Notes under the pieces: model-generated
What the model saw: the letters and a program-made list of their open reading frames with translations, nothing else
Database searches by the model: none
Told to the model about the DNA's origin: nothing
Part shown: positions 3,196 through 52,439 of the stretch, piece by piece
Layout of the letters: each line of letters starts with the position of its first letter
How positions within the stretch are numbered: position 1 is the first letter of the stretch
Program-made: the position numbers and the translations under genes
NCBI GenBank assembly: GCA_964017235.1
Contig: OZ024938.1
Location: 6,067,454 to 6,131,453, forward strand
Length of the DNA stretch: 64,000 nucleotides
Origin: Sabellastarte sp. h YS-2021
Lineage: Eukaryota; Annelida; Polychaeta; Sabellida; Sabellidae
Reading direction: 5' to 3'

Positions 3196-4547
3196 GTTTT
3201 CTTGATAGGGCTGATCCCTGCTACGTCTCTGGTCAGAGATTATTTGGGCCTTTACGTTTCTGTATGATGTGCCTTATACCCCATTCACAGCATAGGTAGT
3301 ACATCCCGCAGTTATAGGCGTTTAGCAAAATGTCCCAGTCCTTTGACTACCACTCCAGATGTAATATGGTGACATAAGGTAAGTTGAGGTATTGGACGTT
3401 TCGCCACTGTGACACAAAGTCACATACAAATCTTGGACAGCAGTTAAAGAACAGGAGCGTTTCACCAAACGCCTAGAACCGCAAATTACACCGTCTGTAG
3501 TTTGAACAGCTCGGATGAAATGTGGCACCCTGGGAGAGGTTCCGCCACTGGGTGAAACTTCTAACCACGGTACATACACCTATAGTGTGAAAGGGACATT
3601 ACGTCATCTCTCTAGCTTCATTAAAACATTCAGGCTGGAGAGGTGGGATTGGTTTACATGGTGGGTCCTTTTAATGCATGCACACTATAGAAGGTCTCTT
3701 GTCGGAGTCATAAGGACAAGATCGTGAGGAAAAATTCAAAAACGAGTTATGACCATACAGAGCAGTGTGAATGGGACATAACAGACTGTCAGAAGATATT
3801 ATAACGCATCAAACTGTCAGTTGCTGGTTGCAAAAAGTTGCTAAAATCTCTCTTATTGAGAGATACAATTGATAGATGAAACTGAGAGATATGCATGACC
3901 AGAAAAAGCCTTTGAACATGTCATGGGAAGGGTTTTCTATAAAACTGTCTATTATATCCCATTTGGCAAGGTAATTAGGTGCACAAAAACAAGCGGCTTG
4001 CGTTAAGAAACCACATACAAAACTGTGGGCTATGTATGTGAAAAACTGTTTAAACACTGTCTCTTTTCATAAAAACCTTGAGTTAAAGGCTACCATTCAG
4101 TCACATTCGCCAACCTAAACAATTCATATTTGACAAAAACTTGCTTAGTTTAGTATAAATTTGACATTATATAATTAGAAAGGTTTTTATAGCCCTTCTG
4201 CTCCTTTTTGTTGCATAAAAATCCATGCAGAAATAGCTGAGACATTGCAAGTTAAAGACTGACGTTTTCTGTTGACTGGTGCCCCCGTAAATATGAGAAC
4301 CTTTTCGCATTCTCTCATTAAACATGGACTTATTTAGGTCATAAAACATACAAAATGGTGGATAGTAAAAGCAAAACATCCCTCATTACACGTATACAGG
4401 AAAACTAGATCACTCATGAAGATTAACAAAATAACACTCATGCTACAGACTCGTATAATATTTTTATCTTCATTTGTGATATATTTTGTTCTGCATATGT
4501 CATTTGGGCAGTTTTCATATTGTATGAACAGCTTTTTAAGTTACAGA

Positions 4548-4875
4548 CTGAGGTGTTAATTTTGTATACTGCCCTCTACCGTGTACATATTAGGTTGCGA
4601 CAGGACGTAACAGCATCTTAAAGCAATTTAGAAAACACGCCCCCCCCAAAAAAAAAAAAAGAAAAAGAAAAATCCCGCTGAATTACACAAAGCGGAAAAT
4701 GCCCCAAAAATTCACAACTAAAGGTTTGGTTGTAGCTAAATGAACCACAACAAACAAAAGCGTAGCCCGAGTAGTTAGAGGTTTTACTCGGCAGCGGAAC
4801 CCTGTCCAGGGATGCCTCATATCTTCTGAGATTGGTGTTTTCATCACAATACAGGAGGTATAACCTGTGGTTGAT
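4548..4875. other. Spacer between the two duplication copies
   Basis: This 328-bp stretch is not shared by the two copies. It holds a C8/A13 homopolymer junction (about 4641-4660) and a segment (4750-4830) similar to the dispersed ACTCGGCAGCGGAACC / CCTTCCGAGG-type repeat seen in the transporter intron near 22700. No gene. Confidence 0.6.
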
Positions 4876-7857
4876 TTAGATTAGATTCCCTGAATCCATT
4901 CAAAGATCGGAGCCTATTTTCTGGAAAAGTGTGAACATACCACAAAGAGGTATTTGTGTACACAGATTGACAATTGACAAATTGACAATAGGTTGGCAAC
5001 AGATGTGTGAGAATTGGCCTTCTGCAGTGAACAATTGACTTGTGAGTTTGAATTCTAAAAAAAAAGTGTATAGTCACTTGTGTCTGAATTATATTGAAAA
5101 TTTATCAACTACAAAATTTATTATCCTGGTAAAACAGCATGAAGTTTTTATTGCTCTGATTAATGTATGTAACCAAACCTGTATTTTTCAAAATATATGG
5201 GAAATCATGTGTTAAACATAAAACGATTACAGGTACCATTGTAGAATGATATCACTGTACAAGTAAGGACTTGTTCAACTCTGCTGTACAATCTTGTAAG
5301 TTATCTTGTAAGTTATAACTTCACAATATCCCAAGTAGAATAAGACACATAATATCAATATATTGGTGTGTTTGTTGTCATTGTATGTTGGTATTTTTGC
5401 CCCTTGCTATTGGGAAATAAATAAAATAAACTGGCTAATTTGCCAACATCAGGAGCATAGGGCTTAACCCACGCAAATTTTAACCATATTTCACCATGGT
5501 CATACATGGTTTACTATATTTTGTAAAATGGCACCACGGTCATGTGACCGTGGTCATCCATGAACAAAGAGAGTGGATACTAACCATGTTCTACTATGGT
5601 CTGAAAAAGTTGCATCATCATGGTCAAACATGGTCTACCATGGTCCTGTGACCATGGTCAAACATGGTTAAATCTATTTTATTGACTGTGAGTGTTCCCT
5701 CATTGTACCAACTATTCATCTGTATATTTTACTACCTACAGTTAATAGAACTTAAAATATTTCTCTTTGGCCTAGTTTTAAAATCTCTCAGAGTTGAAAT
5801 ATACCCTTTATAAGTTTTACTGTATATTCGTTGGTAGCATATTTTTCGTTTCATCATCCTACCCATGCAAACCGCCAATGAAATAGGCCAATGACAGTAA
5901 GCAAAAATCATGAAATCATGGAAGTTTACTCTCTACAAAATTGAAATAAAAACCCTCCAATAACCAAAAATATGCGACAAAAGCAATTTTTTCAGGTGAG
6001 GGGTTTCTTTCCAATATGTTATATTTCCTTACATAATAGGTGTTGACAACCAAGATGGTGACTGTAGGATATCATTACAGTATTTTTGTAAAATGTTCTG
6101 GATACCAAGGTCCCCGGGTTACCGACCTATCTCTCAGTTTGACCAAAAAATACCAAACCCTTGAAACGTTAAATCTTGAAAGTCTTTTCAATTTTTGTTT
6201 TATGTCCATCTAGTATTTTTGATGTTGCAAATAATTCTTTCATGCAAATATGTTTTAGAAAACATCCAAATTTTCATGCATTTAGACTGTTAAAAAGTTA
6301 AAATTTGTCTCTCAGACTGCAAGAATTCATTACAAATACTAGCTCATGGATAACCATCAATACAATTAAATGGTTTTGAATAATATTCAAAATATAACAT
6401 AATAATAACAACATTTATCACCTTGTTCAGAAAAAAGTTGAAACTTTATCTCTTTGCAAAAGCTTATGCACCCTACTGTGTTGGTTTTTTTTCCCTGTGT
6501 TTTCTTGATAGGGCCGATCCCTGCTACGTCTCTGGTCAGAGATTATTTGGGCCTTTACGTTTCTGTATGATGTGCCTTATACCCCATTCACAGCATAGGT
6601 GGTACATCCCGCAGTTATAGGTGTTTAGCAAAATGTCCCAGTCCTTTGACTACCAATCCAGATGTAATATGGTGACATAAGGTAAGTTGAGGTATTGGAT
6701 GTTTCACCACTGTGACACAAAGTCGCATATGAATCTTGGACAGTAGTTAAAGAACAGGAGCGCTTCACCAAATGAAAATAACCGCAAATTACAACGCCTG
6801 TAGTTTGAACAGCTCAGATGAAATGTGGCACCCTGGGAGAGGTTCCGCCACTGGGTGAAACTTCTAACCACGGTACATACACCTATAGTGTGAAAGGGAC
6901 ATTACGTCATCTCACTAGCTTCATTGAAACATTCAGGCCAGATGGGCAGGATTGCTTTACATGCTGGGTCCTTTTTATGCATGCACACTATAGAAGGTCT
7001 CTTGTCGGAGTCATAAGGACAAGATCGTGAGGAAAAATTCAAAAACAAGTTATGATTAACTTATGACCATACGGAGCAGTGTGAATGGGACATAACAGAC
7101 TGTCAGAAGATATTAGAATGCTTCAAACTGTTGCTGCTTGCAAAAAGTTGTTAAAATCTTTCTTATTTAGATATACAATTGAAAGATGAAACTGAGAGAT
7201 ATGCATGATCAAAAAAAGCCTTTGAACATGTCATGGGAAAGGTTTTCTATAAAACTGTCTACTATATCCCATTTGGCAAGGTAATTAGGTGCACAAAAAC
7301 AGGCGGCTTGCGTTAAGAAACCACATACAAAACTGTGGGCTAGGTATGTGAAAAACTGTTTAAACACTGTCTCTTTTCATAAATAACTTTACTTAAAGGC
7401 TACCATTCAGTCACATTCGCCAACCTAAACAATTCATATTTGACAAAAACTTGCTTAGTTTAGTATAAATTTGACATTATATAATTAGAAAGGTTTTTAT
7501 AGCCCTTCTGCTCCTTTTTGTTGCATAAAAATCCATGCAGAAATAGCTGAGACATTGCAAGTTAAAGACTGACGTTTTCTGTTGACTGGTGCCCCTGTAA
7601 ATATGAGAACCTTTTCGCATTCTCTCATTAAACATGGACTTATTTAGGTCATAAAACATACAAAATGGTGGATAGTAAAAGCAAAACATCCCTCATTACA
7701 CGTATACAGGAAAACTAGATCACTCATGAAGATTAACAAAATAACACTCATGCTACAGACTCGTATAATATTTTTATCTTCATTTGTGATATATTTTGTT
7801 CTGTATATGTCATTTGGGCAGTTTTCATATTGTATGAACAGCTTTTTAAGTTACAGA
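4876..7857 (+). repeat. Segmental duplication, copy 2 (~2.98 kb)
   Basis: Direct-orientation copy of 1570-4547 with the same internal landmarks in the same order: CATGGTCA cluster about 5490-5660, ATG-containing repeat at about 6045, LINE relic about 6426, dispersed repeat about 6585-6890. After GTTACAGA the two copies diverge abruptly. No coding function is supported. Confidence 0.9.
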
Positions 7858-21189: not shown

Positions 21190-22258
21190 TTACTTTGATA
21201 AATGATCAGAGAAAAATGTAATTACCGGAGAGGCTAGTGATGCAATTACTATACAAATAATTCCAAACACTTCCATAACATTGGCATTACCAGGATGAAA
21301 CATTTTAAGCACTGTTCTTTGGATGACATACAACCCTATTGTTGCCAAGGGGAATATCATACCTCCAACAGACACAGGGAAATACACAAGTGGAAACATG
21401 TTCATCAAATGTGAGGCAGTCATCGCCATTATAAATACGATAGTAAATGCAAGGCAGGCATGTCCAGATGGGAATGAAAGATTGCTATCATATGCAAGTG
21501 CAAGTCCTGCCAAAATGACTCCAGTTATCACAACTTGAATGACAGCATTCCAGAAGATAAGACACAATGCAGAATAGGTCTGCAAAAGTGAGCGCGAGAA
21601 ATTGTCAGCGACTACGAGTGACACTGTTCCAAACATGACCATAAGATAGCCGAGTAATAATGAGTTAAAACCGAGACTCGAACTGTATGACATTTCACCA
21701 AGAACTGAATCATTTCGATGAACTATTAAAGAATAATTATTGTCTATATAGTCACATGGAGACATTCTGATTTCCTCAGAAAAGTGCCATGGTTGTGTCA
21801 GTAGAAGTAGTCCAGTTATAGCTAGCACAGATGTAATGATGAAATACCTTGATACCTGCTTCCGTACTATGTCCAGAGTGGTGGCGAGGGCTATGTATAG
21901 TCCGGCATAGATGCCATCCATATTGCCAACTGGTAACAATGGAGCTGCCAGATAGAACAAGGTGGTGTAGATATAATTCAGACAGGCTGCCAAGACAAGC
22001 TTACAGGTATCTGACTTCTGTACAACAAAGGATAGTTTCCCAACAGCCATACACAGAGATGACAGAATGATATCGAATGTAAATCTGAAAATATTTGGAA
22101 TGAAGATAGAAGTCTTATTTCCTGCTACCTGGGATGAAGTTATGGACAAAATGCAACATACTACCCCCAACAGGACGCAGATGTAGCCTTTTATAAGTGA
22201 TTGTATTGTGCTTGGTCCAGATTTCATGTCATCTGCAGTACCCTGGATATTTCCATTG
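21190..22258 (-). CDS. DMT-superfamily-like 10-TM transporter, terminal coding exon
   Basis: The 3' coding exon encodes 355 residues plus part of a split Ser codon and ends at the stop 21190-21192. The protein is almost entirely hydrophobic helices: about ten membrane segments in two sets of five, separated by a polar loop with several Asn/Ser near the middle. This matches the EamA / SLC35-like drug/metabolite transporter fold, and the length (374 residues with exon 1) fits that superfamily. No substrate can be inferred; the family is assigned by topology and overall composition only. The open frame upstream of 22258 reads through a polypyrimidine tract ending TTCTTCTTATGCAG, a typical acceptor, so the exon starts at 22258 and not at an upstream codon. 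An in-frame Met at 22227 is an alternative start if exon 1 is skipped. The protein probably sits in an internal or plasma membrane. Confidence 0.85.
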
Positions 22259-23787
22259 CTGCATAAGAAGAAATATATCAATTAAATTATGTGGCAAAGA
22301 TATGTGATTATTTAGAGCACATCATATAGTAGTCTGGTTTTATGTTAAATATATCCTTATAACAATAAAATGTGGATTGATCACAAAAATTGATTTCTTT
22401 TTTAAAAATAACATGCCTTCTGATTGCACACAGAAATAAACACCAGTTTAGCTCTTTAACCAGATGAGATAAAGGGGAATTCCCGAAGTCCAGGTATTAA
22501 TAGAACTGATATACATGAGGACATTACAGTATGCCTATAGGAGTAAGTACATGTATACATGATGTGGATAATCTCAGAGTGTACATAATTTAGCTTCTGT
22601 TTAAAATACCACTTTAAAGCTTCAAAAGTAGCTTTGTCTTTTTTATTTGTAACCTAATGCCCCAGTCACACTACAGGCAGTATGTCCTGCAGTCATAGGT
22701 TTTTACTCGTCGGCCAAACGGCCTTCCGGGATGCTTCATACCTTCCGAGGTTTGGTTTATCCACCATACTACAGACGGCATAAGTCGTGGTTATAGGCAT
22801 TGGGCAAAATGCCCCTGTTCTTCAAATACAGTCTGAGGTTCGTTTGCAAACATATGACACAGTGACAACATGTCCAATTCCTCCACTCACCTTATGTTTG
22901 CCTTATTACCCGGAAGCATGACCGAATGATCACCTTATATAAACTGTGGATCACACCTTCAGTTACTGTAGCCAAAAATTCATCTGCGCATGCTCATGAT
23001 GAGGCGATCAGAGGCAGAAGTTTTAAACATTTTAAAACCTCTGGAGGATGTGCAAGGTATTGGACGTTTTGCAATTGTATCACAAGTTTGAATATGAACC
23101 TCAGACGGTTGTTGAAGAACAGGGGCGCTTCACCCAACAACTTTAACTGTGTGTTATACTGCCTGTAATGTGACCTGGGTATAATACTCCAAAGAGAGCT
23201 GCCATACTGTAAACGAAGATTACTAAAGCCGTTTTTTAGACTTATTTCACTTTGATGTTGTTTGAATTTATCCAGCAAACAGTTTCTTTTGTGGTGCATA
23301 CCAGAGCAGACAAGAAAAAGGTAAAAAAAATATAAATTTTGAAAACCATTGAAATGCCACTTTTGATAGGTGGATCAGCCATATTTCTGGATGCAAAAAA
23401 TCACTCCAAACTGGCACAATGAGAGTTTGTGATATGTACATTATGGCCTTTTTAATTGCAAACAATAAACAAGAACACTCAGATGGTGCATGCTTTTGCC
23501 AAGGCCCAACACTACAATATATCTTTATATTAAATTGATGAAAAAATCCTCCTGGATTGCAAACGAAATTTCCTAAAAAATTTGTCTAACATTGTCTATA
23601 GCTTTTGAACTTAGTTTTCAAACAAACTTACTTTTCATGCAAACTCTTATCAAAAGGAATCCACTGTTGTTGGTAATAGCAGGTAACGATTTTGCCTTGA
23701 AGGTGTTTTAATTTAGGACAGGAATGACTAAGGTTTATAATACATTCTCTATACATTTAAGTCATTAGTTGTCAGTACTTTACCAAC
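22259..23787 (-). other. Transporter intron (phase 2) with repeats
   Basis: GT-AG intron inferred from donor CTCAG|GTTGGTAAAG at 23788/23787 and acceptor TTATGCAG|C at 22259/22258. Splicing keeps the frame (AG + C = Ser). About 22660-23190 is filled with two pieces of the dispersed repeat that also occurs at 3280, 8013, 40700 and 53140 (GGCATTGGGCAAAATGCCCC, CAGGGGCGCTTCACC). Short open frames here derive from that repeat. Confidence 0.75.
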
Positions 23788-24408: not shown

Positions 24409-24450
24409 TGCCCCTGTTTCACCAAAGGACTAAGCCCTGATCCTGTCTGT
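24409..24450 (+). repeat. Left terminal repeat of Harbinger A
   Basis: Matches, with few changes, the reverse complement of the right end of element B (52690-52733), including the GATCCTGTC and ACCCTTAATCGTGGACAGTC words that follow. Confidence 0.85.
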
Positions 24451-24519
24451 GACCCTTAATCGTGGACAGTCGGTGAAGAAAATGGTAAAATGGGAGGGAA
24501 TACTGAATCGGTATCAAAG

Positions 24520-25201
24520 CCTGAAGAAACCCAAGAACTCTGGAGCCCTGTACCACAACTATAAGGGATTCTTTTCAATAGTAATGTTGGCCTTGGTTGA
24601 TGGACAGTACAAGTTCAGATGGGTGGATGTGGGTACAGCTGGATCTTGCTCAGATGCCCAGATATTTAATACTTGTCACCTGAAGAGGAAGATTGATGAT
24701 GGCAGCATAGGCTTCCCTGACCCAGCACCTATAACCCAGGGTGGTCGAGATGTCCCCTACTTCATCCCGGCAGATGATGCGTTTGCCCTGAAGACCTGGC
24801 TGATGAAACCCTATGGCAGAAGTATGTTAACCAGAGAGGAAAGGATTGCCAACTACAGAATATCAAGGGGCAGGAGAGTTGTTGAGAATGCTTTTGGCAT
24901 CCTGGTTTCAAGATTTAGAGTCATGATGACCACTATTGAACTACCCCCAGAAACAGTCAGGGATGTGGTCATGACCTGTGTGGTTCTGCACAACATACTG
25001 AGAAGCCAGTATCAAGGTCAACATGTTGGTCAACGGCCTGGTGGTGATGATGATGTGCCTGGTGATGGTCGTTTGATTGGTGGTGCTGCTGATTGTGGTC
25101 GAGACAGAAACCCTGCCAGAGAAGCCAAAAGACTGAGGGATTACCTCAAGGACTACTTCAATAATGAGGGAGCAGTGGCCTGGCAAGATGGCAGAATATA
25201 A
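24520..25201 (+). pseudogene. HARBI1-like DDE transposase, N-terminally truncated
   Basis: The open frame runs to the stop at 25199-25201 and matches the element B transposase from its KKPKNSGALYHNYKGF block onward. Visible features are the VDVGTAGSCSDAQIF block, the second catalytic Asp region (PADDAFALKTWLMKPYG), the catalytic Glu in RRVVENAFGILVSRFR, and a basic C-terminus. The first catalytic Asp (GALDGKHV in element B) was removed by the deletion, so this protein cannot be an active DDE nuclease. Codons before about 24520 are subterminal DNA read through in frame (no ATG start at 24449), so the apparent N-terminus is an artefact. The junction lies at a short shared CTGA-like word, suggesting microhomology repair. 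Confidence 0.9.
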
Positions 25202-26274: not shown

Positions 26275-27435
26275 CTACTGAGGAGGCTGCTGCTGTTGCT
26301 GCTGCTGAGGCTGCTCAATGATCTGTGTTGTTAGATCTGGTATCTGGCTTAGTATTCCACTTAAGTTGTGTCTGCTGCCCTCGTCCTGTACTGTGAGCAC
26401 TGATGGAGGGTTTCCAAAGCCAATGGGGCTGGGTGTGTAGTAGACATAACTGCTGGATCTGCTGCCTGCTGCAGCCTGGGTGGAACTAGACGCCTGTTGA
26501 GTGGTTGTTGGCAATATCCCGACCCTCTGTGACTCTTTGGTAATAATGGCTGATCTCTTGGGTAGAACTTGACGTCTATGAGTGTTCTTTACTTCTTCAA
26601 TGTCTCTAAAAATCCTGCCCTTGAGGTCCTCAAACTCCTCTTTGGTCATCGTTTCAGCCTCTGATGCCACATAGTCAAAGAAGGGCTGCCTGTCTGACTT
26701 CTGCTGCAGGAAACCTGAGATCAGTGTCCTCATCTAGTCAAAGTGCTCGAGTATCTTTGAATCTGTAGAAACTGGTGTAGATGTAATAATTGGTTGACTT
26801 GTACTCTCCCTCAGGACACTGGACTCAAGATGTTCTGTATCAGTAGTAGAGCTACACGATTCTTCATGCCTGCTGGTGTTGGGACTGGCCTCGAACCCAG
26901 AACTTCTGTTGGCCCCCTTGCATCTGACGTGGGTCTTAAGGAAACCCATCTGCTGGTAGACCCAGGACTGTCTCTTGGTCATCTCCCTTGGGGCTTGGCC
27001 AGACTGTAGCTTGGAGAGCTTTCCATAACAAGTTCTCTGTGACTCAAACCACCTTCTGACATGAAAGGGCTGGAGCTTCAGTTTTGCAGAGATTTCTGCC
27101 CAGAGAGCCTCCTTCCTATGTCTGTCATGGAAACGTCCATGCTCCTTGTCGTACAGCTCTGGGTGCTACTTCACAAACTCAACAATGGCAATTTCTTGGC
27201 TGTCAGTAAATGTAGCACAAACCCTGGCTCTCTTGGCTGCTGAGTGGCACTCTGATTCTTCCTCACACCTCTCATTTTCTTCGCAAGTTTCCTCAGTAAC
27301 TTCTAAACCTTCTTCCGTCTTTTCTGTACCCTCCTCTGTCCTCTCCTCTGTCCTTTCCTCTCTCCTCTCCTCTTGCCTCTCCTCCATCTTCTTCTTTCGT
27401 CTTTTTCCTCTCTTTCCTCCTTTCTCTTTCCTCAT
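26275..27435 (-). pseudogene. MADF (Myb/SANT-like) Harbinger partner gene, two stops
   Basis: One minus-strand frame of 387 codons from ATG 27433-27435 to TGA/TAG-type termination at 26275, interrupted by two in-frame TAG codons (27163-27165 and 26734-26736). Element B has sense codons at both sites (CTG and CAG). Order: Arg/Lys/Glu-rich N-terminus (about 1-75) with a basic KRAR patch, MADF domain (about 80-165; ATFTDSQEIAIVEFVK, the tryptophan in WAEIS, RRWFESQR), Ser/Thr-rich linker, a block starting MRTLISGFLQQKSDRQPFFD, and a Gln-rich tail. In PIF/Harbinger elements a Myb/SANT-type protein binds the element ends and helps nuclear import of the transposase; I infer that role here. The gene converges on the transposase. 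Confidence 0.88.
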
Positions 27436-36829: not shown

Positions 36830-38330
36830 TTGATCAGTGTGGAGGCGTGGAGTGTCTAAAAGGCTTAAAGGCTGAGCTGAGTAGCCTGGACTTTGATGAA
36901 GTGCTTTTTAGGACGTTGCACATATCATAGGAAATTGTACATATCATTTTTGATTCTCCCCCCAGCTGCCAATCAATTTTTTTCAGAACCAGAATATCCC
37001 ACCAGAAAGAACAACAGGTGTCATCTTCATTAGAATCTGGTCCTACTTTGTGATGTTGGTTTTCAAATTTCAAAGATCACTGATACAGGATTCAATTTTC
37101 TTGAAGCATTCCACCTGCTGTTCGGGGTTGTTGGGATTCGTTGGGAGATATACCTGGCTATCATCTGCAAACAAATGAAAAATGATGCCATGAGATCGAA
37201 TAATATCTCCTGTGGGCCTGGTATACTGAGAATACAAGACTGGTCCTTATACCGATCCTTGGGGAACATAACAATCCAAGGGGCAACTGTGTGACATCAC
37301 TACAGCAAGGCTTACCCTTTGAGATGTTCCTGACAGCTATGACTTGAACCATTTGAGTGCAGTGCCAATGATGCAAAACATATGTTCCGGCCTATTTATC
37401 ATAATTTTATGGTCAACAGTGTCAAAATGCTGCATATAGATCTAACAAAGCAAGCAACACTGTCCTTTTGTCATGCATGCGTAAAAGGATCTCATCAAAG
37501 ATTTTAATAAATGCTGTCTCAGTACTGTCATTTGGATGGTAAGCTGACTGCAGGGGTTCCTGTAAGTCCTTTGCCTCCACAAAGTCCTTAATTTGACCAG
37601 TGACAGCTCTTTCAGTTAATTTTGACATGAATTTTAGGTTAAACACGGGCCTGTAATTTTTGTATGTCAGTTCCAAACCAGGTTTCTTCAAAAGTGGAGT
37701 TACTACAGCATCTTTGAAAAATGAAGGTACATCACCCTTGGTGAGAGATGAGTTTATGATTCTTGTAATAACTGGAAGAAATTCATTTGAGCACTGCTTG
37801 AGAACAGAGGTGGGGATTGGATCTTCTCCACAAGACTTTGTTGTGACCATCTGCAAGAGTTTTGTAACATCATCCTCTGAAAGACAATCAAAGTTTTCAA
37901 GTGGGGATTCACCAGAAACGGAAAGATCGTGACTAGAGAAATCACACGTGTTCTCAAATGTGTCCCTTAATTTTTTGAGTTTTTGTCTAAAAGACCTTCA
38001 CAAACCAGTTTGCAAGATCTTCTGTAGATTCATCGGGTGGCAATGGCATTTCAGTAGCTTTGTTCAATAGTGAGTTTGTGATGTGGATACATGTTGGCAC
38101 AAATATATTGAGGAGCTCTGTAAATGACTCTGGATGGTCTTTTTTTGCATCATCTAAATGGAAATTAAAGTCACCAACAACCAGAAGTTTTCCATCAGTG
38201 TGATTATTATCTGAAGTTGCTTTGAAAATTCTTCACGACACATACTGACTGGGACATTTTGAATACAGGGTGGTCTATAAATCACTGCAAGATTGATGAC
38301 TGTGTTTAAGAGATTTTAGCTTGACATTCA
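36830..38330 (-). pseudogene. CR1/L2-like LINE fragment: endonuclease end plus RT
   Basis: Minus-strand order: AVIYRPPC (about 38270) and LLVVGDFNFHLDD (about 38160-38200), both APE-type endonuclease motifs. Then the RT N-terminus in the open frame 37422-37856 (GEDPIPTSVLKQC, YRPVFNLKFMSKLTE, LQSAYHPNDSTETAF, ALLDLYAAF). Then LFADDSQVYLPTNP with the catalytic FADD near 37150-37200 in a shifted frame. The domain order is that of a Jockey-superfamily ORF2. Several frameshifts and stops make it dead, and the C-terminal WNSLP-type block is not recognisable. It appears to be a different, more complete family member than the 3' fragments elsewhere. Confidence 0.85.
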
Positions 38331-41560: not shown

Positions 41561-41707
41561 CTGACTGTTTGGCTACTGAGAGACGTGTGTCACTGATTTG
41601 TAGGGGTTTTCAATTTTTATTTTATATATATTATACTTGAGCTTAAGCCAAATTTCACAGTTAGGAGACACATTTTACTATTTTTTTATTATTTTATCGA
41701 CTGGATC

Positions 41708-42878
41708 ATGAGAAAAGAAAAAGGAGGGAAGAGAGGAAGGAAAAAGATGGATGAGAGGGAGAAGGAAAGTCAAGTAGAGGAGAGGAGTGAAGTTATTAGA
41801 GAAGAAGGAACTGAGAGGAGAGAGGAGGAGATTGAGGAAGGTCCAGCTATTGGGGAAGTTGTGGCAGAAGAAGACAGGTGTGAAGAAGATCCGGAGTGCC
41901 ATTCTTCAGCCAAGAGAGCCAGGGTGTGTGCCACTTTTACAGACAGTGAGGAAGTTTCCATTGTGGAATTTGTAAAGCTGCACCCAGAACTGTATGACAA
42001 GGAACATTCACGTTTCCACGACAGGAACAGAAGAGAGGCTCTCTGGGCAGAAATATCTGCAGATTTCAAGCTCCAGCCATTTGATGTGAGACGCTGGTTT
42101 GAGTCCCAGCGAACCCATTATGGAAAGCTGTCTAAGCTCCAATCTGGCCAAGCCCCGAGGAAGATGACCAAGAGACAGTCCTGGGTCTACCAACAGATGG
42201 GTTTTCTCAAAACCCACATCAGAAGAAAGGGGGCCAACAGAAGTTCAGGTTTTGAGGCCAGTCCAAATACCAGCAGGCAGGACGAATCACACGGGTCAAC
42301 TACTGACACAGAACACCTCGAGTCCAGTGTCCTGAGGGAGAGGAGTCAGTCCATCATTACATCAACACCCGTTTCAACTACAAGATTCTCGAACACTTTG
42401 AGCAGATGAGGACACTTATCTCAGGTTTTCTGCATCAGAAGTCAGACAGGCAGCCCTTCTTTGACTACGTGGCATCAGAGGCCGAAAAGATGACTCAAGA
42501 AGAATTTAAAGAATTAAAGGGCAAGATATTTAGAGACATCGAAACTATTAAGGGCAACCGTAGATGTCAGCCATTGCCCAGAAGATCAGCCACTGTTACC
42601 ACGGAGTCCCACAGGGTCGGCCTACTGCCAACAACCACTCCACAGGCGTATAGTTCCACTCAAGCAGCAGCTAGCAGCAGTTTTGTGTACTATACACCAA
42701 GCCCCATTGGCTTCAGCAACCCTACATCTGTCCTAACTGTACAGGACGAAGGGAGCAGACACATGGAATCTTTAGCCAGCTACCAGATCTGACATCAACA
42801 CAGATCGTCGAGCAGCCTCAGCAGCAGCAGCAACAACCGCAGCAGCAGCTCTTTACTATCACCACTTCAGCTCAGTAG
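41708..42878 (+). pseudogene. MADF (Myb/SANT-like) Harbinger partner gene, frameshifted
   Basis: Starts ATG 41708 (MRKEKGGKRGRKKM), with a Glu/Arg-rich acidic-basic N-terminus and a nuclear-localisation-like KRAR. A MADF domain follows at about residues 78-165 (SIVEFVKLHPELYDKEHSRF, WAEIS, RRWFESQRTHYGKLSKL), then KRQSWVYQQMGF and a Ser/Thr-rich region. Near 42375-42380 a net loss of four bases relative to element A shifts the frame. The correct continuation (KILEHF, MRTLISGFLHQKSDRQ) is read from about 42376 in the second frame. A further shift near 42765 separates the Gln-rich C-terminus, which reaches a stop at 42876-42878. Its likely role is a DNA-binding partner of the transposase, by analogy with other Harbinger elements. 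Confidence 0.88.
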
Positions 42879-42899: not shown

Positions 42900-43990
42900 T
42901 TGACCTGCCAGGCCCTTTTCAGGGCCACCAAATCTTCCAAAAACAATTATTCAGGTACATGTTATTCCAATTCCCCTCCCAAAACAAAAAAGTTCAGTAC
43001 AAATACTTATCACAAGAAAAAAAAGTTAAAGTCCAACACCTACACTACCCCAAACATGAAACAAATAACCCATTGTACCACATATAACAAAAAAGGCCAC
43101 ATAAAAAAAATAAAAATAACTCCCAATATGGCCATTAATCAGACCATTTTTAGATTAAACTCCATGGGACAGTTTAAAATCTGTAATTGAAAAGTCCAAC
43201 ACTTACACCTTCCCTAGAGTTAAAAGGCATTATTACATACTTGCCAACCCACCAACAGACAAACCCAATTACCAAACATAACCCCCAAATAACAAACCCA
43301 GTAAGAAACCCAACATCCATCTAGCAATAATAAACCCAACCCCAGTAACCACCAACCAAGAAACCCAAAAACCCAAAATTAAATAGAACCCATGCCAACG
43401 AACTGACAAACTATTTTGCAAACACAATCCCCCATTATTGAAAACAAAACTAGTTTCATGGTTATATTTTCTGCATTTTTGTGATTAGAAGTGAAGATTT
43501 AAAATTGAAGATTTCCATAAAAACATTTCTGCTACAAATACATTTTCAACCCATGAACAAAAAAAGTGTTGAAATTAGGAGGTGGATTTCCAAATATACA
43601 AAAAAAATAATTCAATTTAGGATATTATGTGTGACTTTGTGTTTTGCTTTTGTTTAACACTGGGTTTGTCTGATTGTTGGGTGAGTAACTTGTGTTTGTC
43701 TGTTTGTCCGTCTGAACAAGTTATGTTTGGCATGGGGTTTGTCTGTTTGTCCGTCAGTACAAGTTATGTTTGGCATGGGGTTTGTCTGTTTGTCCGTCGG
43801 TACAAGTTATGTTTGGCATGGGGTTTGTCTGTTTGTCCGTCTGTACAAGTTATGTTTGGCACGGGGTTTGTCTGTTTGTCCATCTGAACAAGTTATGTTT
43901 GGCATGGGGTTTGTCTGTCTGTAGCAAGCATAGCTGATTAATTGTTTTTGGAATATTTGGTAGTCCTGAAAAGGACTGTTTGTTAGTCCT
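42900..43990. repeat. Inverted central region of Harbinger B
   Basis: Between the two convergent stop codons, the edges are inverted copies. TTTTCAGGGCCACCAAATCT with TCCAAAAACAATTA on the left (about 42915-42952) matches the reverse complement of about 43935-43985. Inside lie a C-rich minisatellite (43236-43345; CAAACCCAATTACCAAACAT) and a G-rich array (43640-43925; about five 43-bp units of TTATGTTTGGCATGGGGTTT plus GTCTGTTTGTCCGTC). Long periodic frames in the G-rich array are artefacts. Confidence 0.85.
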
Positions 43991-44042: not shown

Positions 44043-45180
44043 TTATATTCTGCCATCTTGCCAGGCCACTGCTCCCTCATTATTGAAGTAGTCCTTCAGG
44101 TAATCCCTCTGTCTTTTGGCCTCTCTAGCAGGGTTTCTGTCTTGGCCACCACCAGCAGCACCACCAATCAATCCACAATCACCATGCACATCATCATCAT
44201 CATCCTCCCCAGGCTGCTGACCAGCAGGTTGACCTTGATACTGGCTTCTGAGTATGTTGTGCAGAACGACACAGGTCATGACCACTTCTCTAACTGTTTC
44301 TGGGGGTAGTTCAATGGTGGTCCTCATCACTCTAAATCTTGAGACCAGGATGCCAAAAGCGTTCTCCACAACTCTCCTGACCCTTGATATTCTATAGTTG
44401 GCAATCCTTTCCTCTCTTGTTAACAGCCTTCTTCCATAGGGTTTCATGAGCCAGGTCTTCAGGGCAAAAGCATCATCTGCCAGAATGAAGTAGGGGACAT
44501 CTCTACCACCCTGGGTTATAGGAGCTGGGTCAGGGAAGCCTATCCTGCCATCTTCAATCCTCCTTTTCAGCTGAGAGGCATTAAATATCTGGGCATCTGA
44601 GCAAGATCCAGCTGTACCCACATCCACCCATCTGAACTTGTACTGTCCATCTACAAGGGCCAACATGACAATGGAAAAGAACCCCTTGTAGTTGTAGTAG
44701 AGGGCTCCAGAGTTCTTGGGTTTCTTCAGGGCCACATGCTTCCCATCCAGGGCTCCTAGGGCATGTGGAACATTCCACCTGATCCTGAATTCCCTCTCCA
44801 GTTCTTTCCACTCATCTGGGGTAGTAGGACATTTGAGGTACTCTCTGATGAACTCATCCTGGATGGCCCTGCAGACCTCTGGTAGAAACTTGGAAATGGT
44901 GGATCTTCCAACCCTGAACTGACAGGATAATGATGTGTATGACTCTCCAGTGGCCAGATATCAGATGGTGAGGGCTAACTTCTCCCCAACACTGAGCTCT
45001 GTAGTTGGTGGCCTGCCTGGCTAGACGTGGTTCCAGTCTGGTCTTCATCATTTCAAAGAATTCTGGGGTCATCCTCATGTAGTTGGTGAATCCTGGAATG
45101 TCTGTGGCATACAGATCAGCCATAATGTTGTGGTAGGCCCCCCTCTCCTCTCTCTGCAGTAGCCATGGCCTGACCCACAT
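44043..45180 (-). pseudogene. HARBI1-like DDE transposase with frameshift and stop
   Basis: Starts near ATG 45178-45180 (MWVRPWLLQREERGAYHN) and may extend in frame further up through a Pro-rich stretch to about 45235, where a possible splice acceptor lies. A helix-turn-helix-like N-terminal half (MRMTPEFFEMMKTRLEP) follows. A frameshift at about 44985-45000 moves to the frame VGEKLALTI, in which TGA (44961-44963) replaces what is probably an Arg codon. The rest is open: GRSTISKFLPEVCRAIQDEF, first catalytic Asp in GALDGKHV, second Asp in ILADDAFALKTW, Glu in RRVVENAFGIL, and a stop at 44043-44045. It would be a complete DDE nuclease but for the two lesions, and is unlikely to be active. Confidence 0.9.
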
Positions 45181-45240
45181 GTTGTGTCTTTTTGTAGGTC
45201 TCTGTATGGGTGCTGGTGGTGCTGGTGGTGGTTGCTGTGC

Positions 45241-45494
45241 TTGACATAAAAAAATGGAAATACATGATTATTTGTAACTGAATAAAAACCAAAAAAGACC
45301 TAAGTTGTTGTTGAATCTGTCTTCCATTAAAAGGTGGCATCCTGCTGTGTTCCTAGAAAAGCAATGGTGATTAGATCACGAATTTTATATATATATACCC
45401 AGAAAATCCAGCAACTTTGCAAAACAATAATCGGGGATCCTGGTCTGGGGAAGACTGAGGAGGCCTGAGGACGCCAGGACTTAATCGTGGGTTA
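45241..45494. other. 5' region of Harbinger B transposase
   Basis: An ATG at 45338-45340 opens MPPFNGRQIQQQL, followed by AG|GTCTTTT, a possible donor. A T-rich tract ending TTATGTCAAG is a possible acceptor about 60 bp downstream. The phases I tried do not join to the transposase frame, so a short first exon is only a possibility. From 45420 subterminal GAGGCCTGAGGA words begin, running into the LTR insertion site. Confidence 0.35.
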
Positions 45495-45499
45495 GTCGG

Positions 45500-46513
45500 T
45501 GTTACGGTCACGGGCAAGCACGGTAGCAATTACCGGTTGTCTTTAAGTTGTAACAGAAAAAGCAAAAAGTTAAACTTAACAAAGTTATTTAATAGTCAAC
45601 AATAATGATTACAGACAAGTAGTATGCTCTTAACCAAACACACTAATACAATAATAAGATCTAGCTGACCTGACCACAGCGATTATGAGTTAAGTTTATC
45701 CGCCGTATCCAGCAATCTGTTCCGTAATCCTTCCTGTAGTATATTCTGTGGTCTATCCAATGTCCTGTGGTCTGTCCTGTGATCTGTCCAGTGTTCACTC
45801 ACACACAGATATCTATATCTTGTGACCTGTCTCACACTCAACAACACAAAAGGTTCTTGTCCTGCTATTCTTTATATATCCAGTCACACAGAATGTCTGT
45901 CTGGAGATATTTAGAGAGTTAACACAACTGTACTGACTGCTCCAAGATGTGGACAATGTCCAAAATGCAGTAAATTCACTCTCTGTTATATGAATGTACA
46001 ATATCCAAAATATCCAAAGTACAATAAATCTGTCCAGATGATGTATCCAGTTCACTCCAGTAAAAGTTCACAGTGATATAAGCATATATTATTCTCCAAA
46101 ACACAATAGCTCTACTTATAGCAAGCGAATACAAAGTTTTTTTGTGGTCAGATGTACATTCCTTATATACCTTCACAGATTCCTCTGGAATTGTACAGAA
46201 CCAACTCAAAAGAAGATTGAGCCATCTAGGCCAAATGAGGAAGTTCTAGAAACTACTGGCAATTGGGTTTCCCCAAATCTATCATAACCACTGAGGGGGG
46301 GATTTCCCCCAGTCTGTGAACAAATCAATAAACACTAAAACACAAAAATCAATAAGTCCCTTACTTTAAATGTTAACACACAAAAAGAACCAACAACACA
46401 ATTATCTTTTATGACAATGTATAAACATAAAGCTTAAATTAAACAATGCACTAATATAGTGCCTAATATATGTAATATACAATGTACTAATATAGTGTCC
46501 AATATATGTAACA
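45500..46513 (-). repeat. 3' LTR of the Gmr1-type element
   Basis: 1014 bp, TG...CA ends. In this copy the putative polyadenylation signal is AATAAC (near 45584-45589), whereas the other LTR has AATAAA. As this LTR would terminate the transcript, its signal has been damaged since insertion. Confidence 0.95.
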
Positions 46514-46524
46514 CCTCCCCACTT
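46514..46524 (-). promoter_or_regulatory. Polypurine tract
   Basis: On the element strand AAGTGGGGAGG sits directly against the 3' LTR (TGTTACATA). This is the expected second-strand primer site. Confidence 0.85.
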
Positions 46525-46595
46525 AAAGAAAAATTTTGGAAACCAAGGGGTTACAAAATTTTACAAGAGATTTTCACCAGGTATATACACACAGG

Positions 46596-49500
46596 TTATA
46601 ACTTTTTACAAAGCATTTTGTGCAAGAAGACTAAAGGATTGTGATCTGTGTATACAACGGTGGCTTTTGATGATGAAGATATGTATATGTCAAAATGCTG
46701 GATGGCCAAAATGAGTGCTAAACATTCTTTTTCTACTGTAGAGTAGTTCTTTTGATCAACATTAAATTTTTTTGAAAAATAGCAGATGGGATGTTCAATA
46801 TCTTCATTATCACATTGCAGTAAAACTGCACCTGCACCCACATCACTGGTGTCTACAGCCAGCTGGAAAGGTTTACTGAAGTCCGGAGCAGTTAGTACGG
46901 GCTCTAAACAGAGAAGGTTCTTTACTTTGTCAAATGATTTTTGACAAGTCTCTGACCAGTGATATTTTACATTCTTTTTCAGTAATTCAGTCAATGGAGC
47001 AGTGACTTCTGAAAAGTTTTTGCAAAATTTTCTATAATATCCCGCCATTCCAAGGAACCTCATTAAGCTTTTCTTATTTTCAGGAATGGGATAGTCAATG
47101 ATGCTTTTCACTTTAGCTTTGATTGGTGTCACCACTCCATCACCCACTACATGCCCTAAGTACACAACCTTTGCTTTTACAAAGTCACTCTTTGACAAAT
47201 TTACAGTGAGGTTTGCCTCTTTGAGCCGAAACAAGACTTGTTCAAGCCTTTTTAAATGTTCTTCCCAAGTATCACTAAAGATGACAATATCATCCACATA
47301 CACTTCAACACCTTCTAAGTCTTTTAAACATATATTCATTAGTCTTTGAAATGTGGCCTGGGAATTCTTCATGCCAAATGGCATCACCTTGTACTGATAT
47401 AGACCATCAGGGGTCACGAAGGCTGATATTTCTTAGGCTTGCTCATTGACGGGTACACACCAATATCCTTTCAGTAAATCACACTTTGTGATGTATTTGG
47501 CATTGCCAATCCGATCAATACAGTCTTCCATCCTTGGGATAGGGAAGGAATCCGTTTTACACAAAACATTGACCTTTCTGTAGTCAGTGCAATATCTGAT
47601 TGAACCGTCTGGTTTCGGGACCAAAACACAAGGAGATGCCCAACTACTTTGAATTGGTTCAATTATATCTTTTTCTAGCATGTATTGCACTTCCTGCCTT
47701 AATTTTTCAAGTTTCATAGGATTTACCCGATACGGATGCTGTTTGATCGGACGGGCATCGCCGACATCGACATCATGCATGAGTATATTTGTCCTATTAG
47801 GGGCATTTGGGAACACTGACTTATACTTTAAGAGCAATTCAATGAGTGGAACCCTCTTATCTGGTGGTACATGACTCAGTTTGGTTTCCAAAGCATCAAG
47901 GATCTCAGAATTACTCAACCTAATTTTACATTCAACATCAAGATCAGGAGTGTCGTCCCATATTTCGTGCTCCTGATTACTGTTACTTTCTATATTACAG
48001 TCAGTAATCATAACAGGCTTTTTCACACCCCTTTCAAAGTATGGTTTTACCATATTTACATGACATAGTTGGGTTGACTTTCTTCTGTCCGGGGTTTCAA
48101 TGATATAGTCCAGGTCACCTACTCTCTTTAACACTTTGTATGGCCCGTGATATCTGGCCTGTAACGTATTTCCCTGGACAGGTAGTAACACTAAAACCTT
48201 GTCACCTGGTTTGAAAGTACGGTTTTGCGACTTCCTATCGTAAAGCATCTTCATTTTTGACTGAGAATTTTTCAAATTTTGTTGCGCCAGCTCACAAGCC
48301 TTCTTCAACTTATCTCTGAACTTTGAAACATAATCTAGCAGATTTAGGCTCTCGGTGTTCTCAGATAACCAATTTTCCTTCAACAGCTTGAGAGGACCAC
48401 GGACTGAATGGCCAAAGACCAATTCGAAGGGACTAAAGCCTAAAGACTCTTGAACAGACTCTCTAACTGCAAACAATAATAAGCTGATGCCTTCATCCCA
48501 ATCTTTTTCATTGTCTAAACAATATGTCCTAATCATATTCTTCAGAGTTGAATGGAACCTTTCAAGTGCACCTTGGGATTCTGGGTGATAAGCACTAGAT
48601 TTGATCTGTTTGGCACCTAACTGAAATACAACCTGTTGAAATAGTCCTGACATAAAATTTGACCCTTGATCTGACTGGATCTCTTTTGGTAAGCCAACTA
48701 GAGTAAAGAAATTAACCAGAGCTTTTAGGATTTTGGGAGCTGTTATGTTGGTCAATGGTATGGCTTCGGGAAATCTGGTTGAGGCGCACATAATGGTCAA
48801 AAGATATTGGTTTCTGGATTTAGTTTTTGGTAAGGGACCTACACAGTCAATTATCACTTTGCTAAATGGTTCCTCAAATGCTGGAATGGGTTTGAGAGGA
48901 GCTACAGGAATTTTTTGGTTTGGCTTTCCTACCATTTGACAAGTGTGACAAGTTTTGCAAAATTCTGCCACACAGTGCCGAATTTGAGGCCAATAGAAAT
49001 GTTTGGTTATCTTGTTGTAAGTTTTGTTGATGCCTAAATGGCCACCCATTGGAGACTCATGGGCCAATTTCAGTATCTCACTTTGGTACATTTTTGGTAC
49101 AACAATCTGGTGTACTACTGACCATTCTTCAGATGCAGGGACATTTGGTGGCCTCCACTTTCGCATAAGTACACCATTTCTGACATAATAGCCTACAGGG
49201 ACCTGATCTAGCTCTACTGGTGGCAAGACCAACTTGAATAAAGGAGCTAATTCAGGGTCATTTTCCTGCTCTGAAATCAATTTTGATTTTGAAAGCGATA
49301 CATCTTTGCAGTCAATTGGGTCTTGTTTTTCAGAATCTACCCTATCCTTGGGATTAGTATCACTAAAATTCTGCACATCATGGTCATAGTTGTTCAAGAA
49401 TGTATCTGACAAATCAACTAAGACATCTGTAGATTGTTTACAATCTTTTGGTTCTTCTTGGGCCTTTTTGGCCATAGCTCGAGTCACAGCACAGGAGGGA

Positions 49501-51299
49501 AAAATACCAGGAATAACCTCTTCTAATTTCTCAGTGCTAACCAAAGTGATCGGCTTAGAAGTAACCTTAGGATCAGCAACTACCTTTCCACCTGCCAGAT
49601 CATTTCCCAATAACAAAGATACCCCTTTAATGGGTAAAGTGGGCCTGGCACCCACAACAACAGAACCAGTAACTAAGTCTGATACTAAGTTGACCTTATG
49701 CAAGGGAACGTTCACACAGCCTCCTTCAATACCTTGAGCAATGACACTCTCACCAGTAGATGTGCTTATACTCAATGGCAATACACCTTCTAAAAGTAAG
49801 GACTGAGTAGCTCCAGTGTCTCTTAATATCTTAATGGGGACCTGACTGGAACTACTTTCCAAGGATACAAAACCCTCAGACACAAAAGGTTTGAACTCTT
49901 CCCTAATAATCTCAGACTTGTCTAAACCAATACTAGACTCTGCTCTATTGGGATTTGAATGCCAGTTAGACTTGCTAGACACAAAGGCGTTGGGCGTTGC
50001 CTCCTTTTCTCTTCTCTTTTTTAAGAGCCAACAGTCAGACATAACATGCCCAGGTTTCTTACAATAATGGCACACAGGAGCAAAGGATCTGGGTTTCCTA
50101 TCCTTACTCATAGTCTGATTTGAGGTTTGACCCTTATCTGAACTCTTTTCTGGAGCTACATTTTCAGATTTCTTTCCTATTTCTGGATAAGACTTTTTAG
50201 CAGGACCAAAGGACTTATTCTTGTTGAAAGTGGACTTGTGAGTTAGCGCATAGTCATCAGCATAAGCTGCTGCTTTTGCCAAATTTTCAACTTTCTGTTC
50301 ATCTAGATAGGTTTTAATGTCAGCACGAACACACCTTTTGAACTCTTCAATCAAAATAACTTGCCTAAGTTTTTCAAAGCCTGTACCTACTTCCCTAGAA
50401 TTACACCATCTGTCAAAGTACACTTCTTTCTCATGGGCAAATTCAACATGAGTTTGACTTTCTTGTTTACGATAATTTCTGAATTTTTGACGATATGCTT
50501 CTGGTACCAACTCATATGGTTTCAAAATAGCATTTTTGACAGAGTTATAGTCCACACATTCAGAAATTGGCAAAGCCGTGTATGCCTCCTGGGCCTTTCT
50601 CCTCAAAACCTTTTGCAGCAATAAAGGCCACTGGTCTATAGGCCATTTCAAATTTTGAGCTACTCTTTCAAAGTGTTGAAAGTACTTATCAACTTCTGAT
50701 TCATTGAAAGGTGGTACCAGTCGCACATTTTTACCCAAATCAAATTTGGTAGCAATGGACTCTTCATGGGCAATTCTACGGGCATTGAGTTCTAAAGCTC
50801 TCATTTCTCTTTCATGTTTAAGCTCAAGTTCCTTTTCTCGCTGTTGAGCTTCAAGCTCTTCTTTTCGTTGTTGAGCTTCAAGCTCTTCTTTTCGTTGTTG
50901 AGCTTTAAGCTCTTCTTTTCATTGTTGAGCTTCAAGCTCTTCTTTTCGTTGTTGAGCTTCAAGCTCTTCTTTTCGCTGTTGAGCCTGAAGCTCTTCTTTT
51001 CGTTGTTGAGCTTGAGTTTCAAGCTCTTTAAGTCTTAACTCTCTTTCAATTTCTAATCGCCTGATCTCATATTGCCCAGAAGGTTCCATTGGTAGAGGCT
51101 TATACACTTCAAAACAAATATCAGGTAAAACATCTTCATCAACTAACTGTTCAACAATAAGCCTTTTAAGTTCATGTTTACGTGTTGACCTTTTCACCTC
51201 TAACTGTAACTCTTGTGCTATCTGCATTAACATATCTTTTTTAAAAGTTTCTAGAACTTCTACAGATGGTGACTGTACAAACTCTTTAGCACTAGCCAT
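46596..51299 (-). pseudogene. Gag-Pol of the Gmr1-type element, two nonsense codons
   Basis: Single frame of 1567 codons from ATG 51297-51299 (MASAKEF) to the stop 46596-46598, broken by TGA at codon 127 (50919-50921; the neighbouring repeat units have CGA) and TAA at codon 1289 (47433-47435). Approximate order by codon: Gag N-terminus; a coiled-coil of KEELEAQQR repeats (about 90-155); Gag core (190-360); CCHC zinc knuckle CHYCKKPGHVMSDC (about 409); aspartic protease DTGA (about 492); integrase HHCC finger (about 745-785); integrase catalytic Asp near 816 (VIIDCVGPL), Asp near 878 (QSDQGSNF) and Glu near 912 (ALERFHS); an SH3-like C-terminal domain; RT from about 1150 with YVDD near 1334; RNase H from about 1480 with DTSDVGAGAV. 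It ends shortly after TDHNPLVFLHKM, before the usual RNase H end, indicating a 3' deletion. Confidence 0.92.
50826..51030 (-). repeat. 27-bp coding minisatellite in gag
   Basis: Seven to eight tandem 27-bp units encode KEELEAQQR (or close variants, e.g. KEELQAQQ). They give a charged coiled-coil near the Gag N-terminus. One unit carries the CGA-to-TGA change. Opposite-strand frames full of LLSFKLFF are artefacts. Confidence 0.9.
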
Positions 51300-51394
51300 T
51301 TTGAGCACTGTTGACTGTAACCAATTACTAAATCAAATGGATTTTCAAAATGTTAATTGAACGGTTGATCAAATGGTTGTAATCAAATGGTTGG

Positions 51395-51412
51395 ATCCCG
51401 GACGAGCCCCCA
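51395..51412 (-). promoter_or_regulatory. Primer binding site, tRNA-Pro type
   Basis: On the element strand, 7 nt after the 5' LTR, TGGGGGCTCGTCCGGGAT is the classical 18-nt sequence complementary to the tRNA-Pro 3' end (the primer site also used by murine leukaemia virus). Confidence 0.9.
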
Positions 51413-51419
51413 ATTTTCC

Positions 51420-52434
51420 TGTTACGGTCACGGGCAAGCACGGTAGCAATTACCGGTTGTCTTTAAGTTGTAACAGAAAAAGCAAAAAGTTAAACTTAAC
51501 AAATTTATTTAATAGTCAACAATAATGATTACAGTCAACTAGTATGCTCTTAACCAAACACACTAATACAATAATAAGATCTAGCTGACCTGACCCACAG
51601 AGATTATGAGTTAAGTTTATCCGCCGTATCCAGCAATCTGTTCCGTAATCCATCCTGTAGTATATTCTGTGGTCTATCCAATGTCCTGTGGTCTGTCCTG
51701 TGATCTGTCCAATGTTCACTCACACACGGATATCTATATCTTGTGATCTGTCTCACACTCAACAACACAAAAGGTTCTTGTCCTGCTATTCTTTATATAT
51801 CCAGTCACACAGAATGTCTGTCTGGAGATATTTAGAGAGTTAACACAACTGTACTGACTGCTCCAAGATGTGGACAATGTCCAAAATGCAGTAAATTCAC
51901 TCTCTGTTATATGAATGTACAATATCCAAAATATCCAAAGTACAATAAATCTGTCCAGATGATGTATCTAGTTCACTCCAGTAAAAGTTCACAGTGATAT
52001 AAGCATATATTATACTCCAAAACACAATAGCTCTCCTTATAGCAAGCGAATACAAAGTTTTTTTGTGGTCAGATGTACATTCCTTATATACCTTCACAGA
52101 TTCCTCTGGAATTGTACAGAACCAACTCAAAAGAAGATTGAGCCATCTAGGCCAAATGAGGAAGTTCTAGAAACTACTGGCAATTGGGTTTCCCCAAATC
52201 TATCATAACCACTGAGGGGGGGATTTCCCCCAGTCTGTGAACAAATCAATAAACACTAAAACACAAAAATCAATAAGTCCCTTACTTTAAATGTTAACAC
52301 ACAAAAAGAACCAACAACACAATTATCTTTTGTGACAATGTATAAACATAAAGCTTAAATTAAACAATGCACTAATATAGTGCCTAATATATGTAATATA
52401 CAATGTACTAATATAGTGTCCAATATATGTAACA
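51420..52434 (-). repeat. 5' LTR of the Gmr1-type element
   Basis: 1015 bp, TG...CA ends. On the element strand, TATA-like words GGTATATAAGGA (52081-52092) and GGATATATAAAG (51791-51802) precede AATAAA (51504-51509), about 290 nt after the second one. A start near 51770 and R/U5 over the last ~350 bp would fit. This assignment is inference. Confidence 0.92.
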
Positions 52435-52439
52435 GTCGG

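Follow-up and report, generated by a model that had tools for sequence, protein, structure and literature searches.

The window analysed here, a stretch of 64,000 nucleotides from contig OZ024938.1 of the annelid Sabellastarte sp. h YS-2021, carries at positions 45,500-52,434 a long terminal repeat (LTR) retrotransposon of the Ty3/gypsy type, in which the integrase is encoded upstream of the reverse transcriptase (RT). Sequence inspection and LTR alignment place it on the minus strand, the initial annotation having given no strand. We consider, with good confidence, that the best explanation of our results is that this copy is a degraded RT-bearing element from a young Gmr1-type family, and that this family exists as two forms, one with and one without RT, in a single recombining pool in which the RNAs of the RT-less form would be copied in trans. 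This explanation builds on what was observed of the two structures, of marker counts in the genome, of the youth of the sampled copies, of their target duplications and of the variation that the two forms share.

The RT-bearing form has one Gag-protease-integrase-RT-RNase H frame of about 1,570-1,618 aa. The RT-less form has a Gag-protease-integrase frame of about 1,050-1,110 aa with a stop right after the integrase, the RT-RNase H part being deleted. The two forms were seen in the host genome (1.786 Gb in 647 contigs), where the best 150 of 1,635 candidates for the SCAN profile, all above the cut-off, contained two classes of long frames: 1,000-1,120 aa at 40 of the 150 places and at least 1,400 aa at 24. 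We fetched 35 loci (L001-L035), namely alternate rows of the first 40 and the last 30 among these 150 places. RT and RNase H were absent from 25 of the 35 and RT was present in eight (in part only in L003), while two were truncated before this could be told. All ten fetched loci with frames of 1,000-1,120 aa were RT-less, and all four with frames of at least 1,400 aa were RT-bearing. Of the 20 RT-less loci examined for frames, 16 shared the terminal residues of the last long frame and a stop immediately downstream of the integrase; L013 had a variant of this end, and the frames of L001, L015 and L017 were disrupted earlier. Alignment of 14 RT-less copies showed that they match RT-bearing copies over the final ~30 nt of RNase H, the 3′ untranslated region (UTR) and the polypurine tract, and that ~100 unrelated nt precede the RNase H remnant. 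When these ~100 nt after the stop were compared with the RT-RNase H region, the score was 26 (95% value of shuffled sequences 25, maximum 30), which makes homology unconvincing. In genome-wide counts of 28-mers, allowing up to one mismatch, the RT-less junction was found at 578 places, an RT/RNase H marker at 287 and a common SCAN marker at 919; reversed-pattern controls gave 0. The resulting ratio of RT-less to RT-bearing copies, about 2:1, is only an estimate, because the markers were selected for their conservation among the sampled loci (adjacent 28-mers occurred in 18 of the 19 RT-less and in all 8 RT-bearing sequences).

We then compared the variation within and between the two forms by the fixation index (Fst), using 16 of the 25 RT-less and six of the eight RT-bearing loci, the rest being truncated, indel-shifted or old. 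From the capsid to the integrase core (2501-4750 of the aligned loci), Fst lay between -0.06 and 0.09 in 15 alignment intervals, with a permutation p < 0.05 in two of them (0.035 and 0.045). Beside the deletion, at the end of the integrase, it was 0.74 over 4751-4900 and 0.82 over 4901-4984 (p 0.005, the smallest possible value), and reached 0.86 and 0.91 without the recombinants L021 and L022. On the 3′ side, where 13 RT-less and three RT-bearing copies were compared (L004 and L024, which have 3′ insertions, L031, L011, L009 and L021 being left out), Fst in the 3′ UTR and LTR was -0.14 to 0.12 over eight intervals, none with p < 0.05, and variants of the 3′ UTR common to both forms can be seen in the alignment. 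The point at which shared sequence gives way to private sequence differs between RT-less copies, lying at ~4,760 in L014, at ~4,820 in L016 and at ~4,955 or later in L021 and L022. Template switching in particles holding both RNAs would be the simplest cause of this shared variation.

Judging by LTR divergence, which is similarly low in both forms (median 0.003 in 16 RT-less versus 0.0049 in five RT-bearing copies, the window copy included), insertions of the RT-less form are about as recent as those of the RT-bearing one, though the RT-less form codes for no RT. A target duplication was found in 17 of the 21 copies with an LTR pair, again including the window copy, and measured 4 bp in 11 and 5 bp in six of the 17. 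In the other four (L012, L018, L030 and L034), one flank consists of a neighbouring copy, as in arrays whose members share LTRs. The RT-less form has no RT, yet shows its own LTRs, target duplications and recent insertions, as expected of a non-autonomous element mobilised in trans. Both duplication lengths occur in RT-bearing and RT-less copies. Regularly spaced neighbouring copies of the family, in the style of LTR-sharing arrays, were also observed, for example at G000:C5:23.186-23.199 M, C8:60.882-60.897 M and C14:30.937-30.952 M, and the RNase H places of other gypsy families (best 150 of 22,815 candidates) have a similar regular spacing.

The private C-terminal segment of the integrase differs between the forms by 0.32 nonsynonymous (Ka) and 0.49 synonymous (Ks) substitutions per site, and can be aligned across L014 and L018 without a gap. 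Among 14 RT-less copies, the recombinants L021 and L022 being excluded, Ka/Ks was 0.27 from SCAN to protease and 0.09 in the integrase core, and among six RT-bearing copies it was 0.22 and 0.07. As these stretches are common to the two forms (Fst about 0), the low RT-less values may be borrowed from the RT-bearing copies. In the private segment, Ka/Ks within the RT-less copies was 0.47, and the variants common to RT-less copies and unseen in others comprised 12 nonsynonymous and 7 synonymous changes, a ratio (omega ~0.59) not different from neutral. The Pfam domain Integrase_p58_C was matched by the RT-bearing L018 (1e-11), the recombinant L022 being similar to the RT-bearing form, and there was no match above the cut-off in the RT-less segments of L014 and L030, the two tested. 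The catalytic triad was unchanged in 8 of 8 RT-bearing copies (window included, L003 unmatched) and changed in three of 24 RT-less loci, L006, L022 and L030, in a listing in which L006 appears twice and L017 shows two of the three residues. The change is identical in L022 and L030, and L022 is flanked by a target duplication and has an LTR pair of its own, so this change was probably passed on by transposition, recurrent mutation being the alternative. The RT-less form thus probably has an integrase whose C-terminus is impaired and, in some copies, also its active site.

The arrangement of the RT-bearing form recurs elsewhere in the genome. When the RT-RNase H piece was compared with the genome, the best 139 of 9,945 candidates were scored, all at least 96% identical; 46 of these 139 lie in open frames of at least 1,560 aa, the longest being 1,618 aa. 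In L018 and L025, whose separate pieces were searched against Pfam, the integrase is followed by RT and RNase H, as in the window, and the single Gag-Pol frame, without a frameshift, is 1,618 aa in L018 and 1,569 aa in L025, while it is broken in the window copy. The integrase-first order reported in the initial annotation is thus seen in the window and repeated in RT-bearing copies elsewhere in the genome, and the search for less damaged copies that it had advised did bring out better preserved ones. RT, RNase H and integrase are all of gypsy type (Pfam RVT_1, RT_RNaseH, Integrase_H2C2, p58_C), and no copia-type RT (RVT_2) was among the matches of the window, L018 and L025, which were of the RVT_1, RT_RNaseH and RVT_3 types only. 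Among solved structures in the PDB, the integrase best matched Ty3 Gag-Pol (5.3e-36), and RT-RNase H best matched 4ol8 (3.1e-55), which we take to be the Ty3 RT, and Ty3 Gag-Pol (5.3e-55). A scan of a viral contig collection with the RT-RNase H piece gave no relative. The gypsy-type RT and integrase, the integrase-first order, the single Gag-Pol frame and the SCAN domain in Gag make it very likely that the element belongs to Gmr1, in support of the earlier assignment. The RT-bearing form would hence be a new member of Gmr1, an arrangement that was itself already known.

We propose that the RNAs of both forms would be packaged in common particles, that the RT of the RT-bearing form would copy both RNAs, and that template switching would homogenise all but the stretch tied to the RT deletion. 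The RT-less form is most likely mobilised in trans, as a partner or parasite of the RT-bearing form, by which it is probably copied, because nearly all sequence variation is common to both. Its Gag-protease-integrase frame would stay open mainly because of continued recombination with the RT-bearing pool. We infer co-packaging, the supply of RT in trans, the formation of particles and the form that would make them. Several points weigh against this explanation. The fetched loci were ranked by SCAN score and are therefore not a random sample, and the copies used for Fst were picked as being without indels in the compared stretch, so that their lack of indels is partly a matter of choice, unshifted coordinates having been the reason. 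RT-bearing copies were few in that comparison (six, and only three on the 3′ side), and the LTR pairs of the four array members are not simple insertion clocks. In addition, chromosomal gene conversion between copies could have spread the variants instead of template switching.

Internal deletions are common in LTR elements, and the window copy itself has lost a portion of RNase H that is present in the four RT-bearing copies with which it was aligned, so the RT-less copies might be viewed as wrecks that arose by independent deletions and have no transposition history of their own. We regard this as scarcely credible, as one common junction is found at 578 places and the RT-less copies have their own LTR pairs and target duplications, with near-identical LTRs in the sampled copies; a junction common to many separate insertions contradicts independent deletions. 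That the element is a chimera in which a copia-like integrase was joined to a gypsy RT, as the gene order alone would favour, is just as improbable, given that the integrase matches Integrase_H2C2 and Integrase_p58_C and that both it and RT-RNase H have Ty3 proteins as their best solved relatives, in a structure library that may hold no copia integrase. Some more room is left for the view that the divergent end of the RT-less integrase was acquired from another gypsy family rather than through long separate evolution. The sharp boundary, with a Ka of 0.32 and a Ks of 0.49 beside near-identical sequence, is in its favour. Among the best 150 of 2,806 candidates for the segment, however, identity is at least 95% throughout and no frame exceeds 1,118 aa, which leaves no RT-bearing donor among them; a more distant donor being possible, we consider an acquisition doubtful.

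The two forms might also live in a mutual partnership: the RT-less form would contribute additional Gag, protease and integrase core to the particles, would correct the 1:1 ratio of Gag to RT that the RT-bearing form has through its fused frame, and would be kept as a helper of the pool. This would fit the intact RT-bearing copies L018 and L025, whose one Gag-Pol frame has no frameshift, the 40 of the best 150 SCAN matches that lie in frames of 1,000-1,120 aa (10 of 10 fetched being RT-less), and the low Ka/Ks among the 14 RT-less copies from SCAN to protease and in the integrase core. However, this core is shared with the RT-bearing form, from which its low Ka/Ks is possibly borrowed, the private segment does not depart from neutrality, the Pfam match to the integrase C-terminus is lost in both copies tested, and a catalytic residue is changed in three of the 24 RT-less loci but in none of the eight RT-bearing copies, which leaves a partnership unlikely. 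More tentatively than the trans-mobilised pool, and with less than even confidence, we suggest that the RT-less form might be a long-lived second 'allele' of the pool, older than the present insertions, which codes for Gag, protease and integrase core, is tied to the RT-bearing form by constant template switching, and may be the main supplier of structural proteins. That it would have persisted well beyond the age of today's insertions is suggested by the private-segment Ks of ~0.49, compared to a median LTR divergence of 0.003.

The Gmr1 clade is defined by an integrase upstream of RT (PMC8220671, PMC6238403, PMC3587641), and its reported hosts are fish, a tunicate, frogs, an annelid and crustaceans (these three papers together with PMC4131045 and PMC11117352); Gmr1 is not among the 21 Gypsy clades of a mollusc survey (PMC6238403, Table 1). 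The element described here resembles the clade in this order, in its single Gag-Pol frame and in the SCAN domain in Gag, which among frog LTR elements is reported only from Gmr elements (PMC4131045). Fish Gmr1-4 have single Gag-Pol frames of 1,506-1,634 aa and LTRs of 337-518 bp (PMC11117352), whereas the LTRs here are ~1,015 bp long. Unlike these Gmr1 systems, the family here is accompanied by a more numerous RT-less form.

Trans-mobilised recombining pairs are already known, from cattle ERVK (PMC10924933) and grass pararetroviruses (PMC5491270). As in the family here, the shorter, non-autonomous form of the cattle ERVK[2-1-LTR] competent/defective pair outnumbers the complete one, and trans-complementation with pervasive recombination was inferred for it (PMC10924933); the cattle system is an ERVK rather than a Gmr1-type retrotransposon, and its defective form is without intact frames, whereas many RT-less copies here keep an open Gag-protease-integrase frame. 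Non-autonomous grass pararetroviruses and their autonomous partners are likewise homogenised by region-specific recombination, but in noncoding regulatory sequence (PMC5491270), while here most of the coding region is homogenised as well. No LTR element described as retaining Gag, protease and integrase after the loss of RT-RNase H, and no non-autonomous Gmr1, was recognised in an open-access literature search, which is not proof of absence. LARD, TRIM, MusD/ETn and IAP-delta1 are thought or shown to be mobilised in trans. They too are named as non-autonomous LTR elements (PMC4608283, PMC10924933), and the RT-less form differs from them in retaining the Gag-protease-integrase frame and losing RT-RNase H. 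The two-form pool is a clean natural example on which the coexistence of an RT-less element and its helper could be studied. As recombination has erased nearly all differences except the deletion and its flanks in the compared copies, the RT-less form can be dated independently of its copies. The pool could also serve to test models, such as those simulated in PMC10924933, in which helpers are displaced by defective copies.

The features of the window copy are collected in Table 1. The two LTRs differ by 12 substitutions over 1,014 sites and one gap (K = 0.0119, ~1.2%), and the LTRs, target duplication, primer site and polypurine tract that had been reported for this copy were all located; we take the primer site to be of the tRNA-Pro type. 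Pfam matches in the single minus-strand frame, which runs from an ATG at 51,299 to 46,596, follow the order SCAN, CCHC, weak protease, Integrase_H2C2/rve/p58_C, RVT_1 and RT_RNaseH, and the E-values of several domains (1e-20 to 1e-32) exclude chance matches. The integrase has the catalytic triad D, D-35-E, and the N-terminal of the two RVT_1 pieces alone is below the cut-off (23.8 versus 29.6 bits). The domain order given in the initial annotation therefore stands, but the frame is cut by two in-frame stops, and the protease match is below the Pfam cut-off. Nor is the copy structurally complete, as had been claimed: besides the two stops, ~206 nt of the RNase H end are gone, so that only 17 nt separate the end of the RNase H match from the 3′ UTR, compared to 223 nt in RT-bearing copies such as L004 and L018. 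With this damage, it makes a poor reference copy for this host, a role for which it had been put forward and for which better-preserved copies are found in the genome. The 27-nt direct repeats in Gag (50,778-51,040) encode a charged, coiled-coil-like unit, the number of which varies among copies by a crude motif count.

Table 1. Features of the retrotransposon copy in the window (window coordinates).
Feature	Position	Strand	Details
5′ LTR	51420..52434	-	1,015 bp, TGTTA...TAACA ends
3′ LTR	45500..46513	-	1,014 bp, 98.7% identity with 5′ LTR
Target-site duplication CCGAC, upstream copy	52435..52439		flank comparison
Target-site duplication CCGAC, downstream copy	45495..45499		flank comparison
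Primer binding site TGGGGGCTCGTCCGGGAT, 18 nt	51395..51412	-	7 nt inside of 5′ LTR
Polypurine tract	46514..46524	-	adjoins 3′ LTR
Gag N-terminal part from ATG, including part of the 27-nt coiled-coil-like repeats	50922..51299	-	open reading frame (ORF) reading
In-frame stop within Gag repeats	50919..50921	-	ORF reading
Gag SCAN domain (PF02023)	50235..50504	-	Pfam, E 8.6e-12
CCHC zinc knuckle (PF00098)	50031..50075	-	Pfam, E 0.0014, slightly below cut-off (19.1 versus 20.8 bits)
Aspartic protease, DTGA motif	49602..49838	-	motif by eye; RVP match E 0.24, below cut-off
Integrase zinc-binding domain (Integrase_H2C2)	48927..49100	-	Pfam, E 8.7e-21
Integrase core (rve), DD35E	48582..48872	-	Pfam, E 7.3e-10
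Integrase C-terminal domain (Integrase_p58_C)	48042..48146	-	Pfam, E 1.1e-10
Reverse transcriptase (RVT_1), two pieces either side of stop	47148..47621	-	Pfam, E 4.2e-5 and 1.4e-20
In-frame stop within RT	47433..47435	-	ORF reading
RNase H (RT_RNaseH), C-terminal part missing	46617..46883	-	Pfam, E 3.1e-28
Truncated frame end, ~206 nt gone versus RT-bearing copies	46596..46614	-	copy alignment

Elsewhere in the window, PIF/Harbinger-like transposase frames lie at 44,043-44,960 (-), 44,854-45,267 (-) and 24,434-25,201 (+), one of which the Gmr1-type element adjoins. DDE_Tnp_4 was matched in Pfam at 44,046-44,960 (E 1.8e-33) and at 24,434-25,198 (E 4.2e-28), and the frame 44,857-45,267 had no Pfam match. 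MADF/Myb-like frames, of a kind that accompanies PIF/Harbinger transposases, were found by Pfam at 26,734-27,165 (-) and 41,597-42,409 (+). A fragment of a non-LTR-type RT frame at 37,422-37,997 (-) was assigned to a LINE by eye, its RVT_1 match (E 0.00088) being below the cut-off, and a 363-aa open frame at 21,190-22,281 (-) has, by eye, the look of a multi-pass membrane protein, with no Pfam match above the cut-off. Tandem repeats of ~86 bp, 94-96% identical, occupy 43,694-43,922. In the host genome, MHC class I gave 0 matches in a search without a responding control, and arrays of C1q-domain genes (best 150 of 316 candidates), an expansion that by itself would suggest a bivalve, were observed at C1:4.1-6.4 M, C5:150-154 M, C7:5.1-5.5 M and C11:9.2-9.8 M.

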